Source of the DNA: Micropruina sonneratiae
GTDB lineage: Bacteria > Actinomycetota > Actinomycetes > Propionibacteriales > Propionibacteriaceae
Direction: 5' to 3'
DNA: 64,000 nucleotides
NCBI RefSeq assembly: GCF_025972045.1
Contig: NZ_JAPDHX010000001.1
Coordinates: 209,181-273,180 of the forward strand
Shown here: positions 3,799 to 16,863 of the stretch, piece by piece
How the letters are laid out: every line of letters begins with the position of its first letter
Numbering within the stretch: position 1 is the first letter of the stretch
Made by a program: the position numbers and the translations under genes
The notes under the pieces: model-generated
Databases searched by the model: none
Told to the model about the DNA's origin: nothing
The model's input: the letters and a program-made list of their open reading frames with translations, nothing else

Positions 3799-4242
3799 AT
3801 GCGCCGCCTCGGATGCCTCGCCGCCCTCGTCCTGCTGAGTGCCTGCTCGATGACGGGGCCCGGCCAGACAGCTGCTCCGGGAGGCACCCCCAGTCCGGGC
3901 GGCTCGCGGTTCTCGACCGCTCCGCCACTGCCCAGCGCCGGCACGCCGTCCGGGACGCCCGTGCCGTTGCCGCAGGCGCGGCTCGAGGCGATCCGCAGCG
4001 ACCTGACCGGACGCGGGGTGGCGATCGCCGATCTCGTCGTGACCAGCACCGAAGCGGTCACCTTCAACGACTCCTCGCTGGGCTGTCCCAAGCCCGGCGT
4101 CCAGTACACCCAGGCCCTCGTTCCGGGCATGCGGGTGGTGGTCCAGGCCGGCGGCCGCGACTACGACTACCGGTTCGGCCGCGGTGATACGCCGACCCTG
4201 TGCGAACAGCCGGGGCCGGGCGCCACCTCGACCACCCGCTGA
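3799..4242 (+). CDS. Putative lipoprotein
   Basis: A 147-residue secreted lipoprotein. The signal peptide MRRLGCLAALVLLSAC ends in the lipobox LLSAC, with Cys16 as the lipidated residue. A P/S/G/T-rich spacer follows, then a small folded region with DSSLGCPKPG and MRVVVQAGGRDYDYRF, ending in a second cysteine (LCEQP) that could pair with the first. Similar SLGCP-type domains occur in uncharacterised envelope proteins of several phyla. No function can be assigned. It is convergent with the subtilisin-like protease gene and separated from it by a strong hairpin. Confidence 0.85.
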   Translation: MRRLGCLAALVLLSACSMTGPGQTAAPGGTPSPGGSRFSTAPPLPSAGTPSGTPVPLPQARLEAIRSDLTGRGVAIADLVVTSTEAVTFNDSSLGCPKPGVQYTQALVPGMRVVVQAGGRDYDYRFGRGDTPTLCEQPGPGATSTTR

Positions 4243-4315: not shown

Positions 4316-7300
4316 TTACGGCGTCGGCAGCGTCAGCGCCTCATCCATTCCGGCCTTGTTGTCGAGGACGACGACCATGGTGCCCAGCGGCTGCTGGTCG
4401 GCCACTGCGTCGGCGTCCACACTCACCTCGACGGTGCGGCTGCCGTTGACCGGCACGGTGGCGAATCCGCCGTTGCTGATCGAGGGCTGCCACGGGTTGT
4501 AGCTCGCCAGTCCCGGCATCTCGTCCGCTGCCGCGGAGTTCAGGATGCTGTAGCTCGCCACCCCGTAGTCGAACGTTCCCGAGTCCTCGCTGATGCCGAG
4601 GTCACTGGCGTACACCGGCAACAGGATGGTGCTGCTGTCGGTGGGGGCCTGGGCGTAGAAGCCGGCCGCGTAGGTGGCGCGGTTGGCGATGTCGTACAGG
4701 AACACCTCGGTGATCCCGTTCGGGTCGTCGGCCCGGATGATGCCGGAGTCGTAGCTGAACACGATCCAGTCCGGGTTGCCGTCGCGGTCGCTGTCGATCA
4801 GGACGTCGAACTCCTGGGTGGCAGCAGTCGACCAGCGGCTCCAGTTGTTCACCGCGAAGACCAGCAACTGGTCGTCGCCGTCGGCGAAGGACTGCACGCC
4901 CGCCGCCCGAAGGTCGAACCCGCGACCCATGGTCGAGGACACGTCCTTCTCGTCACGCAGGCCCCAGGTGTAGAAGTCGGCCGCCGCGGGCAGCGCACCG
5001 TTGGGGTTGGTCAGCTTGACGTTGACGGTGGTCGGCGCCGCCGGCTCGGTCGGCTCCGGCGTGGGCTCGGCCGTGGTCTCGCTCGGGCTCGGGCTCGGCG
5101 AGGTGGTGATCTCGGTCGGGCTCGGGCTCGGTGAGGTGGTGGTCTCGCTCGGGCTCGGGCTCGGCGAGGTGGTGGTCTCGCTCGGGCTCGGGCTGGGCGA
5201 ACCGCTCGAGCTCGGGTTCGGCTTGGGCTTGCCCCTGCCGTCGACCTTGGTCTGGACCGACTTGCCGCCGGTGATCTTCACCGTCTTCTTGCCGGTCGTC
5301 TTGGCGGTGGTGTCCACCACCGACTGGCTCGCCTCGACCATGGCCTGGGCGCGCGGCACCAGCAGGTACGGCACCCGCAGGGTGCCCTTGCCGTTGGAGC
5401 CGATCTTGATGTTGCCCGACACCTCACGCAGGTTGAACAGGTCGTCGGAACTGAGCGAGGTGCCGACGTCGGAGCCCTTCACGGTGAGCTTGACAGTGAC
5501 CTTCTTGCTGCTCTTCGCCGGCACCGTCAGCAGCTTCTTGCTGAACGTGACCTTGGCCTTGCTCGACTGGGAGGTCGCTTGGTTGGCCAGCGTGAAGATG
5601 ACCCGTTTGGAACCCTTGTTCACCAGCGTGATGGTCTTGGTGTAGCTCTTGGTGCCGCGGATGTTCTTGAACCCGAAGCTCAAGGTGGCCTCGGAGACCT
5701 TTCCGGCCGCGGTCTTGTGCTGGTCGCCGATCGCGTAGATCGAGGTGTTCACGACCTGCTTGGTGTCGACCAGTCCGCCGCCCAGGGTGAGCCGGTAACC
5801 GCTCACCTTGGCCGGATCGGCGGTGCTGACCAGAGCCGCGCTGATCGCGTTGGAGCTCCAGCCCTTGTGCGCCTGCCTGGCCAGCGCCGCGACGCCGGCG
5901 ACGTGCGGGGCCGCCATCGACGTGCCGGAGATGGTCGCCGGACCGTTGCCGGTGCCGACGCCGGTGGACACGATGCTGACGCCGGGCGCCGAGATCGACG
6001 GCTTCAGGCCGCTGTCGTTGTTGCGCGGGCCGCCAGAGCTGAACGAGGCGTACGCCTTGAAGTCCGGATTCTGCAGGTCCTTGGCGCTCAGCGTGAGGTC
6101 CGTGCCCGCGGCCGCCACCAGGGCGGCCCCGTCCGAGCTGCGGACGCCCAGGAACGGAATGGTGACCGTGTAGGCCTCACCGGTGTCGGGGTTGCTGGTG
6201 ATCTCACCCTCGACCGGCGGGTAGCTGTCCACGTTGTTGACCATGATGACCGCGTCCGCGCCGGCCTGCTGGCCGAAGATCGCCTTGGCGACCCGGGCGC
6301 AGGTGCCGCGGTTCACGATCGCGATCTGCAGCGGGGCGCTGGGGTCGGAACTGATCCCGGCGGCGGTGAACGAGGCGGTGTCGCAGCCCAGCGAGTTGGT
6401 GTTGACGATCGTGTACGGGCCTTCCGGCAGGTTGGCGCCGTTGGCGTTTACGGCGTCCATCGTGGTGCCACCGAAGCTCAGCGAGGCACCCGGGAAGGTC
6501 GCCGTGGAGTCGACCGCGGCCACGCTGACGACACCCTTGCCGGTGCCGGGCGAGCCGGTCATGTACGGGTTCGGGCCGGAGTTGCCGGCCGAGGCCACAA
6601 CCACCACGCCGGCGGCCTGGGCGTTCGTCGCCGCCACCGCGGAGGGGTCGGTCGCGTCGCCGTAGGTGGAGCCGAGGGACATGTTGATGACGTCCATGTC
6701 GTGCGCCACGGCCCAGTCGATGGCCTCGGTGGTGACGTCGGTGGAGCCCTCGCAACCGAACACCTTCAGCGCGTACAGGTCGACCTTGGGCGCGACGCCC
6801 GGGCCGATCAGGAAGTCGTTGTCGGGGGTCTTGCTGTTGTAGGGGCCCTTGTAGGTGGTGCCCTCGTCGGTCACACCGTTGCCGCCGGTGGTGCCGGCCA
6901 CGTGGCTGCCGTGCCCGTTACAGTCGAGCGGGTTGGCGTCCGGCTTCGGCAACGAACCCTCGACGCTCGCGTCGTAGTCGTCGCCGACGAAGTCGTAGCC
7001 GCCCTTGACCCGGGGGGCGTTGGGTCCGAAGTACTTCGGGTTGGGGGTGTCGCTCGCCTTGGCCTTGTCGAACGCCTGCACCGTGCCCGGGCCGGCGAAG
7101 TTGGCGTGGGTGTAGTCGATGCCGGTGTCGATGATCGCGACCTTGACGCCCTCACCGCGGTACTTGCTGCTCTGCCACACCTGCGGGACGCCGAGGAACG
7201 GCACGCTGGTGGCGTTGTTGATCGTCTGTTGCTGGATCGCCCGCACCGCCTTCACACCCGGCAGCTGGGACACCGCGCGCACCTGCTTGCGCGGCAGTTG

Positions 7301-7657
7301 GACCCGCATGCCGTTGTAGGCGGACTGCATCTGCGAGAAGACCTTGCCGCCGCGTCCGGTAATCTCCTTCTTGACCCGATCCTGGGACTTCTTCAGTCCG
7401 CTGCGGATCTGGGTGACGCGGCTCGCGGAGAGCTTCTCACCGGTCTGGCCCTCGACGACGGCGACGGGGTCGCCGGTCAGTTCGACCATGACGGTGACCT
7501 TCGCGTCGGAGTCGAGGTAGGACGGGGTGAACTTCGTGTCGAGCTTCGACGACGAGGGTGCCTCGTCGAAGCGGTCGACGCCGGTATCGGCGTAGGCGAC
7601 TGTCGGGACTGCCAGGGCAAATGCGCCCGTGGCTATCAGGAGTTTCCGGCGTAGCAA
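4316..7657 (-). CDS. Secreted S8 (subtilisin-like) serine protease
   Basis: A 1113-residue extracellular protease. Order: signal peptide (about 1-23, ending AYADTG); I9-type propeptide (about 50-145); S8 domain with Asp177 (IIDTGIDYTHAN), His249 (NGHGSHVAG), oxyanion Asn359 (SAGNSG) and Ser580 (SGTSMAAPHVAG). A protease-associated domain is inserted at about 415-530. An Fn3-like region (about 650-790), an S/P/T-rich repeat linker and a C-terminal beta domain follow. No LPXTG or S-layer motif is seen. The start is TTG at 7657, preceded by AAAGG; no ATG or GTG is available in frame nearby. It probably supplies peptides from outside protein. Confidence 0.93.
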   Translation of the reverse strand: MLRRKLLIATGAFALAVPTVAYADTGVDRFDEAPSSSKLDTKFTPSYLDSDAKVTVMVELTGDPVAVVEGQTGEKLSASRVTQIRSGLKKSQDRVKKEITGRGGKVFSQMQSAYNGMRVQLPRKQVRAVSQLPGVKAVRAIQQQTINNATSVPFLGVPQVWQSSKYRGEGVKVAIIDTGIDYTHANFAGPGTVQAFDKAKASDTPNPKYFGPNAPRVKGGYDFVGDDYDASVEGSLPKPDANPLDCNGHGSHVAGTTGGNGVTDEGTTYKGPYNSKTPDNDFLIGPGVAPKVDLYALKVFGCEGSTDVTTEAIDWAVAHDMDVINMSLGSTYGDATDPSAVAATNAQAAGVVVVASAGNSGPNPYMTGSPGTGKGVVSVAAVDSTATFPGASLSFGGTTMDAVNANGANLPEGPYTIVNTNSLGCDTASFTAAGISSDPSAPLQIAIVNRGTCARVAKAIFGQQAGADAVIMVNNVDSYPPVEGEITSNPDTGEAYTVTIPFLGVRSSDGAALVAAAGTDLTLSAKDLQNPDFKAYASFSSGGPRNNDSGLKPSISAPGVSIVSTGVGTGNGPATISGTSMAAPHVAGVAALARQAHKGWSSNAISAALVSTADPAKVSGYRLTLGGGLVDTKQVVNTSIYAIGDQHKTAAGKVSEATLSFGFKNIRGTKSYTKTITLVNKGSKRVIFTLANQATSQSSKAKVTFSKKLLTVPAKSSKKVTVKLTVKGSDVGTSLSSDDLFNLREVSGNIKIGSNGKGTLRVPYLLVPRAQAMVEASQSVVDTTAKTTGKKTVKITGGKSVQTKVDGRGKPKPNPSSSGSPSPSPSETTTSPSPSPSETTTSPSPSPTEITTSPSPSPSETTAEPTPEPTEPAAPTTVNVKLTNPNGALPAAADFYTWGLRDEKDVSSTMGRGFDLRAAGVQSFADGDDQLLVFAVNNWSRWSTAATQEFDVLIDSDRDGNPDWIVFSYDSGIIRADDPNGITEVFLYDIANRATYAAGFYAQAPTDSSTILLPVYASDLGISEDSGTFDYGVASYSILNSAAADEMPGLASYNPWQPSISNGGFATVPVNGSRTVEVSVDADAVADQQPLGTMVVVLDNKAGMDEALTLPTP
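5073..5201 (-). repeat. 33-bp tandem repeats coding for SPSPSPSETTT
   Basis: Four adjacent units (5073-5102, 5103-5135, 5136-5168, 5169-5201), three of 33 bp and one of 30 bp, almost identical. They encode 11-residue repeats of Ser-Pro and Thr in the linker of the protease. Such in-frame repeats can change copy number without breaking the gene. Confidence 0.9.
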
Positions 7658-9007: not shown

Positions 9008-11140
9008 ATGAACCAGCCCAGTGACACCTTCGCCCAACGCACCCGACGTCTGGCCTCCGAGGTCCAGCGGCTGCGCGACTGGGCCGGCGGGGACCCCTCC
9101 CGGCTCGGTCCGGTGGCTGATGCCCTTATCGAAGTGACCGCGCACCGGTTGGCCGGGCACGCCTGGGCCGAGGCCGCCGCGGGGGCCCAGGAAGCGGTCT
9201 CGCTGTCGGCCAAACTGCTGGCCCAGCACGGCCCGGTCGGTCCGTACACCGCACCGGCCGACGCCGTGCGTTCGATCACGGCCCTGGTGCACCTGGCGTT
9301 GATCCAGTCGGCGGCGGGGCTGCATGCGCAGGCCGAGCAGGTGCTGGCGGCGGCCTTCGGCCTGCGGACCCAACTGAGCCGGATCGACCTCGACTCGCAG
9401 CTTGAACCGCGAACGGTGGCCTGGGCACTGCTCGCCTGGTCGCGCGCCGCCCTGGCCGACGGCCGGGTGGCCGACGCCAACGCACGCATCGACGCGGCGG
9501 TCGCGCTGGCCGCCACCGACGAGGAGTTTCTGGCCGTCGACGTCGACCGCGCCGCGGCTGAAGCCCGTTGGGCGGCGGGCTGGCCGGAGCCGTCGGTGGA
9601 GTTCGCGCTGCGCGCGGTCGAACGCTACGACCAGCGGGCCTCGGCCGTCCTGCAGCGCCCCTCCTCGACGCCCGAGGGCGTTCTGGAGCGGCTCTCCGAG
9701 CCCCTGTTCGGCTTGTACAGCGAAACGGCCGACCGGGCGCTCGCGATCGGCGCGCCGGGGCTCGGGCTCGAGCTCCGCCGCCGGCTGGTCGACCGGCTCG
9801 GAGCCCTCGCGGTCCGGACGTCGGTTGCGCAACTGCAGTTGGTGTCGGCGCTGGGCGACCTCGCGGACGACCTCCGTGGCCAGCAGCGGACGGCCGAGGC
9901 GAAGGACGTGGCCGAATTGGCGTCCTCGATCGCCGGCGACACCGAAGCCGAGCAGCTGGCTCGCCGGCAGCGCGCCCGGCTGGGCAGCCCGACCTCGTGG
10001 AGTTCCCTGCCCGCGCCCGACGCCTTCGGCGTCGAGACGGGGGCGAATCAGCCGACCGGGCGGCTCGCTGCCCTGCGCGGGCCGGCGGACGCCGCCGAAC
10101 AACGCCGCCGCAGCGAAACCGAGGCGGAGCTGGCGCGTCGCAGTGAAGCCGCGAGAGCGGACGAACTGGCGCGGGCCGAGCGAGAGCGCGCCGATCGCGC
10201 GGAGGCAGAGCGCCTCGCTCTCGAACGGGAGAGCGCGGAGCGGGCGGCCGCAGCGGCCGCAGCGGAGGCGGAGCGGATCGAGAACAGGCGCAAGCGTGAG
10301 GAGCGGATCGCCGAGCACGAGCGCCTCGAGCAGGCGCGGAGGGCCGAACAGGAGGCCGCGCTGCGGGCACGGGTCAGCGACGAGACCCCGCAGGAGCGCG
10401 TCGAACGCGAGGAGCTCGAGCGGCTGGCTGCGGAACTGGCCGAGCTCGAGGCCGAGGAGGCGGCCCGGGCCGAACGGGAGGCCGCCGAGTTGGCCGCGCT
10501 GGAAGCCCAACTGGCCGCCGAGGAAGCCGAACGCGAGCAGGCCCGCGCGGAGCGGGCCGAGCGGGAGCGGATCGAGGCGGAGGAGCTCGAGCAGGAGCGG
10601 TTGGCGGTCGAGCAGGCGGAGTTGGAGCGTCAGGCCCTGGCTGCGCAGCGTGCCGAAGCGGAACGGCTACGGCTGGTCGAACTGGCCGAGGCGCAGGCCC
10701 GCGAACGGGCTGAGCGTGAGGAGGCCGAGCGATTGGCCCGCGAGCAGGCCGAGCGTGCGGAGGCCGAGGCGCAGGCCCGCGAACGGGCTGAGCGTGAGGA
10801 GGCCGAGCGGTTGGCCCGCGAACGGGCTGAGCGTGAGGAGGCCGAGCAGCCGGCCACGGAACAGGCCGACCGCGGGGGCGTCGAGCAGGATCTCGAGCGT
10901 GCCCGCGCCCAGCTGGACGAGGCGTCCACCGCCGGCAAACGTCGCGACGTCCGCGCCGCGAGCGAGGAACTGGTCGATATGCTGCGCGACCGCTACGCGG
11001 CCGATCCGGAGCAGTACCTCACCGAGTTCCTGGATGCCCTGGATCAACTGGCGACCGCGCGCTGGCAGGCCGGCGACTGGTGGGGTTCGCGCGGACCGGC
11101 CAAAGAGGCCAAGACCCTGCGCAAGGCACACGGCCGGTAG
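9008..11140 (+). CDS. Large Glu/Arg/Ala-rich coiled-coil protein
   Basis: A 710-residue cytoplasmic protein of unknown function. Residues 1-330 are all-helical and Ala/Leu-rich with a TPR-like character (repeated WALLAWSRAALADG-type segments). Residues about 355-635 are an almost unbroken charged coiled coil dominated by Ala, Glu and Arg, including a 26-residue tandem duplication. Residues 640-710 form a separate C-terminal helical domain (RDVRAASEELVDMLRDRY) that resembles the N-terminal repeats. The ATG follows GATGGGAG. It has no TM segment or signal. The architecture suggests a cytoskeleton-like or scaffold role, but the sequence does not prove it. Confidence 0.8.
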   Translation: MNQPSDTFAQRTRRLASEVQRLRDWAGGDPSRLGPVADALIEVTAHRLAGHAWAEAAAGAQEAVSLSAKLLAQHGPVGPYTAPADAVRSITALVHLALIQSAAGLHAQAEQVLAAAFGLRTQLSRIDLDSQLEPRTVAWALLAWSRAALADGRVADANARIDAAVALAATDEEFLAVDVDRAAAEARWAAGWPEPSVEFALRAVERYDQRASAVLQRPSSTPEGVLERLSEPLFGLYSETADRALAIGAPGLGLELRRRLVDRLGALAVRTSVAQLQLVSALGDLADDLRGQQRTAEAKDVAELASSIAGDTEAEQLARRQRARLGSPTSWSSLPAPDAFGVETGANQPTGRLAALRGPADAAEQRRRSETEAELARRSEAARADELARAERERADRAEAERLALERESAERAAAAAAAEAERIENRRKREERIAEHERLEQARRAEQEAALRARVSDETPQERVEREELERLAAELAELEAEEAARAEREAAELAALEAQLAAEEAEREQARAERAERERIEAEELEQERLAVEQAELERQALAAQRAEAERLRLVELAEAQARERAEREEAERLAREQAERAEAEAQARERAEREEAERLARERAEREEAEQPATEQADRGGVEQDLERARAQLDEASTAGKRRDVRAASEELVDMLRDRYAADPEQYLTEFLDALDQLATARWQAGDWWGSRGPAKEAKTLRKAHGR
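10684..10839 (+). repeat. 78-bp tandem duplication in the coiled coil
   Basis: Two adjacent 78-bp copies (10684-10761 and 10762-10839) differ at only a few positions. They encode 26 residues of the AEAQARERAEREEAERLA type. A partial third copy of the internal segment (CGGGCTGAGCGTGAGGAGG) follows. Near-identity at the DNA level implies recent duplication. Confidence 0.85.

Positions 11141-11352: not shown

Positions 11353-16863
<5,511 letters not shown>

Follow-up and report, generated by a model that had tools for sequence, protein, structure and literature searches.

Predicted TPR domains flank a middle that is charged helix, proline-rich or both in a protein of Micropruina sonneratiae and its relatives

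TPR adaptors such as LGN/Pins, kinesin light chain, the Rap regulators and BtubC are built on a superhelix of paired helices. Single alpha-helices (SAH domains), as in myosin-6 (PMC5347031) and CAF-1 (PMC10335832), are described in the part of PMC5347031 drawn on here as charge-rich stretches without a hydrophobic seam that carry pairs of opposite charges at spacing 3 or 4; the same part quotes lengths of 40 to about 200 residues, adds that such helices are often mistaken for coiled coils, and reports that Arg-rich designed single helices aggregated. TolA and TonB of double-membraned bacteria are anchored in the inner membrane and driven by a motor, and the relevant sections of PMC12204202 describe an exchange between helical and proline-rich spacers in the periplasm, in which the helical spacer needs more residues for equal reach. 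Finally, intermediate-filament-like proteins of the FilP type exist in actinobacteria, and FilP is a coiled-coil protein, as stated in a portion of PMC6599971.

Here, we compare these systems with a protein encoded in a stretch of 64,000 nucleotides from Micropruina sonneratiae (the window). Micropruina is known from wastewater treatment (PMC5974061, in an excerpt), and the genome of the window, 3.5 Mb in 17 contigs, contains one copy of the gene. A sequence-only reading had proposed an open reading frame at 9008-11140 for a protein with a long coiled coil between two helical end domains. The frame is real: the N domain is under purifying selection (dN/dS 0.23-0.33 in three pairs with congeners), as is the C domain (dN/dS 0.13-0.24 in two pairs), and GC3 in the comparison of the 710-aa ORF is 0.83-0.89, which together with the dN/dS values backs coding. 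The features of the gene are as follows.

9008..11140, + strand: ORF with ATG start, 710 aa, TPR superhelix, charged helical rod and TPR pair (purifying selection, GC3, relatives)
9026..9934, + strand: predicted N-terminal TPR superhelix, residues 7-309, 13 helices (AF2, 10-residue pLDDT means 89-98 past the first block; VIA-align)
9935..10060, + strand: connector, mostly non-helical, residues 310-351, with the nearly invariant W331
10061..10369, + strand: predicted rod helix 1, residues 352-454, 103 aa, about 15 nm (AF2)
10370..10393, + strand: kink that separates the two rod helices, residues 455-462 (pLDDT under 50, with a comparable stretch at this position in the relatives L010 and L011)
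10394..10837, + strand: predicted rod helix 2, residues 463-610, 148 aa, about 22 nm (AF2)
10684..10846, + strand: tandem duplication, 78-bp unit consisting of two 39-bp half units (TRF)
10838..10873, + strand: low-confidence hinge, residues 611-622 (AF2 pLDDT under 50 at 606-622)
10874..11128, + strand: predicted C-terminal TPR pair, residues 623-707, with the motif GDWWGSR..KEAK (AF2 pLDDT about 95-98 from residue 631; profile matches)

The full-length AF2 model, built on an alignment of 33 relatives, had a mean pLDDT of 88.4 and gave the layout listed above, with 13 helices in the N-terminal superhelix (residues 7-309), the two rod helices parted by the kink, and four helices after the hinge (residues 623-707). 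The N domain modelled alone reached a pLDDT of 92.1 and a pTM of 0.88. The best VIA-align match of this domain was the TPR domain of LGN (Z 19.7, 270 residues, rmsd 4.4), and the best 50 rows had Z 15.3-19.7, on a scale where Z under about 13 has little meaning for repeat proteins. In both Foldseek and VIA-align, the PDB neighbours were mostly TPR domains (LGN, Pins, kinesin light chain, Rap and BtubC), and the best Foldseek E-values were 1.3e-4 (full model) and 3.1e-4 (N domain). Thus, the proposed TPR-like character of the N terminus agrees with both the model and its neighbours. The likeness to TPR adaptors is confined to the superhelix; the protein differs from them in its sequence identity of 8-18% in the best 50 rows and in the lack of a convincing PDB sequence match for either the single N domain (best E 0.85) or the N-domain profile (best E 0.012, to a pentatricopeptide repeat protein). 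A shared TPR fold is by itself no evidence of function.

The C-terminal domain, previously described only as helical, is helical in the AF2 model and is itself a TPR unit by profile. The C-domain profile gave two alignments to the N domain (P 7e-4 and 8e-4; one of 30 column-shuffled controls fell below 0.01, the lowest at 0.005) and matched tandem arrays in two further genomes (G073 and G065), with 14 places in a single 1873-residue frame of G073. Based on these two results, both ends are TPR, and in the predicted structure residues 7-309 and 623-707 each form an array of paired antiparallel helices, as in the TPR superfamily. In Pfam, TPR_10 and TPR_12 were each matched weakly by five of 36 relatives (best E 8e-4). 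For the window protein, a Pfam and NCBIfam scan at E 1, TPR models included, gave no match, in keeping with the statement that no family name is evident. Similarly, PADLOC anti-phage defence models yielded 0 families at E 0.001 in the four of 36 members scanned. A match of the C-domain profile to a CarD-type regulator in the PDB (E 0.0039) covered only 31 residues and was taken as chance. Unlike TolA and TonB with their N-terminal transmembrane anchor, the window protein contains no transmembrane-like stretch; its maximum 19-residue Kyte-Doolittle mean is 1.36, at residue 87 inside the TPR domain (hydropathy values cover 27 of 36 members).

Between the two ends, the long Ala/Glu/Arg helix of the sequence-only reading is recovered by AF2 at residues 352-610, broken at the kink. 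Charged repeats are readily drawn as helices by structure prediction. Residues 356-630 are 51% charged and 27% Ala, and they have the richness in Glu and Arg that characterizes single alpha-helices. At spacing 4, the rod has 60 pairs of opposite charge versus 10 of like charge (z 6.6), while pairs at spacing 3 are not enriched (30 opposite versus 44 like, z -1.4); the opposite-charge pairs expected of a single alpha-helix are thus present through spacing 4. Two SMC arms from the same genome, included as controls, had no excess of charge pairs at spacing 4 (z 1.1 and 1.2). The rod shares with SAH domains such as those of myosin-6 and CAF-1 its Glu/Arg-rich composition and opposite charges at spacing 4, and no hydrophobic seam was detected over most of its length; it differs from them in being nearly free of lysine (1 K, 52 R) and in having 251 helical residues, in two pieces, where known ones have 40 to about 200.

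Over the whole rod, the occupancy of positions a and d by LIVMF in the best register was 0.27 versus 0.25 in shuffled sequences, i.e. at chance, and the power at period 3.5 had a z of 0.7 for LIVMF and of -1.1 when Ala was included. Over the duplicated stretch, the a/d occupancy was 0.17 in most 21-residue windows. SMC arm 1 was clearly heptad by the same count (0.49 versus 0.36 shuffled); by contrast, SMC arm 2, which is a coiled coil by family, failed it (0.39 versus 0.38; period-3.5 power z 2.1). The count is a crude stand-in for coiled-coil programs, and because a real coiled coil also failed it, its power is limited. By this crude test, an extended heptad seam is absent from most of the rod.

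The exception is a leucine patch from the kink to about residue 480 (about 456-480), which is heptad-like, with an a/d occupancy of up to 0.67 in 21-residue windows. In the window protein, L010 and L011 alike, the best 28-residue heptad window has the same location, and its score was equalled by shuffles in 22-28 of 200 cases. In the longer rod of L011, the period-3.5 power of LIVMF had a z of 5.0, yet the a/d occupancy was low (0.21 versus 0.19). These observations would suit a parallel dimeric coiled coil, in which the leucine patch zips two side-by-side chains into a two-stranded rod with TPR heads at both ends, and the low a/d count of SMC arm 2 speaks for the same arrangement. Against such a dimer, the heptad signal is at chance over the whole rod and absent from its duplicated part, the dominant repeat units among relatives are 5, 10, 13 or, in the g9 group, 9 residues, none of which is a heptad multiple, and the linkers of the g12 group are nearly all proline-rich. 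We regard the dimer as possible and rather doubtful. The claim that the repeat shifts the register of a coiled coil was not supported: apart from the chance-level a/d values in this crude test, the unit length differs among congeners (10 versus 13/26 residues), so that no common register is kept, and many relatives have proline-rich sequence at the same place.

The sequence-only reading had named a filament or scaffold as a possibility. The long helical middle with a break, placed between two end domains in an actinobacterium, also resembles FilP, and an intermediate-filament-like cytoskeletal protein of the FilP or crescentin type could be built in this way. However, FilP is a coiled-coil protein in the portion of PMC6599971 drawn on, while the window protein, as known from sequence and prediction, has TPR ends and no heptad seam over most of its rod; moreover, the replacement of all or part of the rod by proline-rich sequence would be hard to square with filament packing. 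A filament is therefore very improbable, and a scaffold or tether is the better reading.

The 78-bp duplication is clear. TRF reported a 78-bp period at 10684-10846 (2.1 copies, 94% matches) with a 39-bp sub-period (3.9 copies, 84% matches). The in-frame copies 10685-10762 and 10763-10840 are identical at 73 of 78 positions, and three of the five differences lie in synonymous codons. In 5000 shuffles of synonymous codons within the coil, the identities had a mean of 61.3 and a maximum of 70; in 300 shuffles of all codons, the best 78-nt self-match had a mean of 47.7 and a maximum of 56. Thus, the likeness of the copies exceeds chance or amino-acid constraint and arose at the DNA level, when the unit was recently duplicated or the copies were later homogenised. 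The case for part of a third copy, which had also been proposed, is weak: against each of the four 39-bp units, the 39 bp on the 3' side have 13 differences (26/39 match). Halves 0 and 2 of the duplication are identical. The repeat is better stated as four 39-bp units in two pairs, and the third copy is at best a decayed remnant.

We found the TPR-rod-TPR protein in 39 of 198 Propionibacteriaceae genomes: 32 with both domains, three with the N domain alone (G002, G143 and G144) and four with the C domain alone (G003, G128, G159 and G172). Taken singly, the N domain occurs in 35 of 198 family genomes and in seven of 29 genera, and the C domain in 39 of 198, three of them weaker; these three, which the 39-genome total leaves out, are G065 and G073, where the matches are tandem TPR arrays in other proteins, and G085, where the match is one short frame at a contig start. 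With the A1 profile, no full-length relative was found outside the Propionibacteriaceae in a sample of 391 genomes of the order and 394 of the class, in which five candidates per genome were scored, so that misses are possible. The remaining matches in these searches (E 2e-5 to 1e-3) covered roughly 60-110 profile positions, as other TPR proteins would give, with the exception of a 48-position fragment in G143 (E 4e-13). A search of the open literature, with most subscription journals outside its scope, turned up nothing on this protein family and no report of a TPR protein whose spacer is a single alpha-helix.

The N and C domains lie on separate contigs in four genomes (G004, G145, G147 and G161), and in three (G003, G159 and G172) the C domain starts within the first 201 bases of its contig. 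This suggests that fragmented assemblies tend to break in the linker, and copy numbers in such genomes are uncertain for that reason. Three of 36 members (L012, L040 and L043, from G002, G144 and G143, respectively) end in helical linker, without a C domain in the frame read; no C-domain match was detected elsewhere in these three assemblies, which are partial or broken, and the gene of G144 ends near its contig end. In L054 and L055, the frame leaves the expected composition in the linker before the C domain, as a result of a real shift or of a sequencing error in a GC-rich repeat. The g12 genome G161, which has 7% contamination, contains an additional copy of g9 type, L065 (G161:C34), which probably lies on a foreign contig.

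Among the relatives, both TPR ends are conserved while the middle is swapped: it is a charged helix, an EPEP-type proline-rich stretch, or both in series. Domains were aligned in 33 of 36 members (alignment A3, without L054, L055 and L065) and in 23 members with the C domain located by a motif rule (alignment A2). Linkers were counted in 26 of 36 members, after five at contig ends, two with frame shifts and three without a C domain had been dropped, and a linker was scored as proline-rich where a 15-residue window held 3 or more Pro. In four g12 members the linker is at least 95% proline-rich, and g12 relatives have almost no linker outside proline-rich sequence; M. glycogenica and five of eight g9 members have no proline-rich window at all; and seven of eight complete g18 members have mixed linkers, 20-51% proline-rich. 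A quick N-domain tree requires at least three changes of the proline-rich label by well-supported branches and five in all, with L059 borderline. The length of the complete linkers ranges from 122 to 514 residues, an about four-fold spread.

The repeat units differ as well. Many helical linkers of g1, g18, g20 and g25 have a leading period of 5, 10 or 15 residues, while TRF found 9-residue units instead in g9 linkers. L011, L090 and L091 have units of 10 residues and the window has units of 13/26; proline-rich linkers have units of, for example, 6, 8 or 14. Heptad multiples are seen in a few members, as units of 42 bp (14 residues) in L060 and the proline-rich L051 and of 21 bp (7 residues) in L047.

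These differences in unit length and copy number between species, the frame shift inside the linker of L054 and the missing C domain in three of 36 members are what one would expect of a neutral linker of low complexity, drifting through slippage of its repeats between TPR ends that alone matter. Several properties of the linkers argue against this. Each of the 26 complete linkers carries a net negative charge (-0.01 to -0.24 per residue), and, unlike flexible linkers, they are poor in Gly, Ser and Asn (mean 4.5% together, versus 12.7% in the N domain). A charge-pairing score, in which spacing 4 has full weight and spacing 3 half weight, was above shuffles by z 2.5 or more in 24 of 35 linkers with roughly set bounds; all seven g12 members (L065 set aside) are among the 11 without this signal. 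Between the window protein and L011, 285 aligned linker columns are 68% identical, a value inflated by the alignment of low-complexity sequence, and have a dN/dS of 0.21, near the values of the ends. By eye, part of helix 1 and the stretch past the kink are similar in g1 and g18.

The reach of the linkers bears on the same question. A helix reaches 0.15 nm per residue and a proline-rich stretch 0.30 nm. On these values, in the 20 of 26 members in which the end of the N domain was located by motif, the g9 members and L014 have an estimated reach of 19-24 nm and the remaining 12 members one of 38-77 nm. A ruler of fixed length is thus ruled out by the range of 19-77 nm across the 20 members. Outside g9, reach varies less than residue number (CV 0.26 versus 0.43 in 13 members; 0.06% of 5000 permutations gave a value as low), where the omission of g9 was a post hoc choice and related rows were treated as independent, ignoring kinship; with g9 included, the difference across 20 members is not significant (10%). 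Altogether, we consider it unlikely that the middle is a neutral linker.

The neighbouring genes vary with genus. They were chosen by a GC-position rule, which missed the family gene in four of 36 loci. In the window, the neighbours are a VanZ-type gene and a fused carboxylase; in g12 they include flotillin, IspH and exonuclease VII; an RNase-J-like gene is present at five of eight g9 loci; and g18 loci carry sugar enzymes, an L,D-transpeptidase, a superoxide dismutase and others. In g1, the fused carboxylase lies downstream in three of four loci, the fourth being cut by a contig end, and this is not so in other genera. The flotillin gene (SPFH/Flot) is just upstream of the relative in five of seven g12 loci (L051, L052, L053, L054 and L062). 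As a general partner, flotillin was rejected: it is found in 127 of 198 genomes, i.e. in 21 of the 39 with the TPR-rod-TPR protein versus 106 of the 159 without it, and in the genome of the window the flotillin relative sits on another contig. No partner candidate emerged from the neighbours across genera.

Other genes of the window were noted in passing. The next gene downstream, at 11353-16863 (+), encodes a single-chain carboxylase of 1836 aa with biotin carboxylase, ACC_central, biotinyl and carboxyltransferase domains, and a multidomain carboxylase is likewise downstream in L011 and L012. At 3799-4239 (+) lies a 147-aa gene without a Pfam match that is near the family gene in g1, with genes of the same cluster near some g9 loci. 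At 4316-7657 (-), a subtilase (Peptidase_S8 with a PA domain) contains a 33-bp tandem repeat at 5073-5200 (3.9 copies, 92%), which encodes a Pro/Ser/Glu/Thr-rich stretch.

In total, we somewhat favour a reading in which the protein would serve as a tether or scaffold, soluble and in the cytoplasm, whose two TPR docks sit at the ends of a semi-stiff rod. The N-terminal superhelix would hold a peptide or helix of one partner, and the C-terminal TPR pair would hold a second partner or anchor the protein. For the most part, the rod would be a single alpha-helix that owes its stiffness to Glu-Arg pairs at spacing 4, and it may keep the two TPR ends some tens of nanometres apart. With the persistence length of about 15 nm, roughly 100 residues, given for single alpha-helices in the part of PMC5347031 drawn on, a rod of such length would bend and therefore be semi-flexible. 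Also counting against this reading are the missing enrichment of charge pairs at spacing 3, the near lack of lysine, given that Arg-rich designed helices aggregated, the leucine patch as a possible dimer contact, the four-fold spread of linker length, the neighbours that vary with genus and the three members in which no C domain was found. In-frame gain of 39- or 78-bp units would extend the rod, and no register would be harmed because that part has no register to keep. In other genera, an acidic proline-rich stretch would fill the same place, wholly or partly. The stiffness, the monomeric state, the binding and the tether function are what we infer for this protein.

A further reading, which we put forward tentatively, is that the family consists of struts whose middle is under selection for reach and stiffness and not for its sequence or secondary structure, so that helical and proline rods may interchange while in-frame repeats tune the length. 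TolA and TonB share with the window protein and its relatives the exchange of a helical for a proline-rich spacer; they differ from this actinobacterial protein with TPR at both ends in their membrane anchor and motor. If the strut reading is true, the family would be a soluble cytoplasmic counterpart of the helix-to-polyproline exchange in TolA and TonB.

Our reading, if true, also calls for caution, as composition alone would be no ground for calling long Ala/Glu/Arg stretches of actinobacterial proteins coiled coils. A single family would then offer a natural set of spacers of varied chemistry and length between the same two ends, and would let one ask whether cells value the reach and stiffness of a spacer or its sequence.
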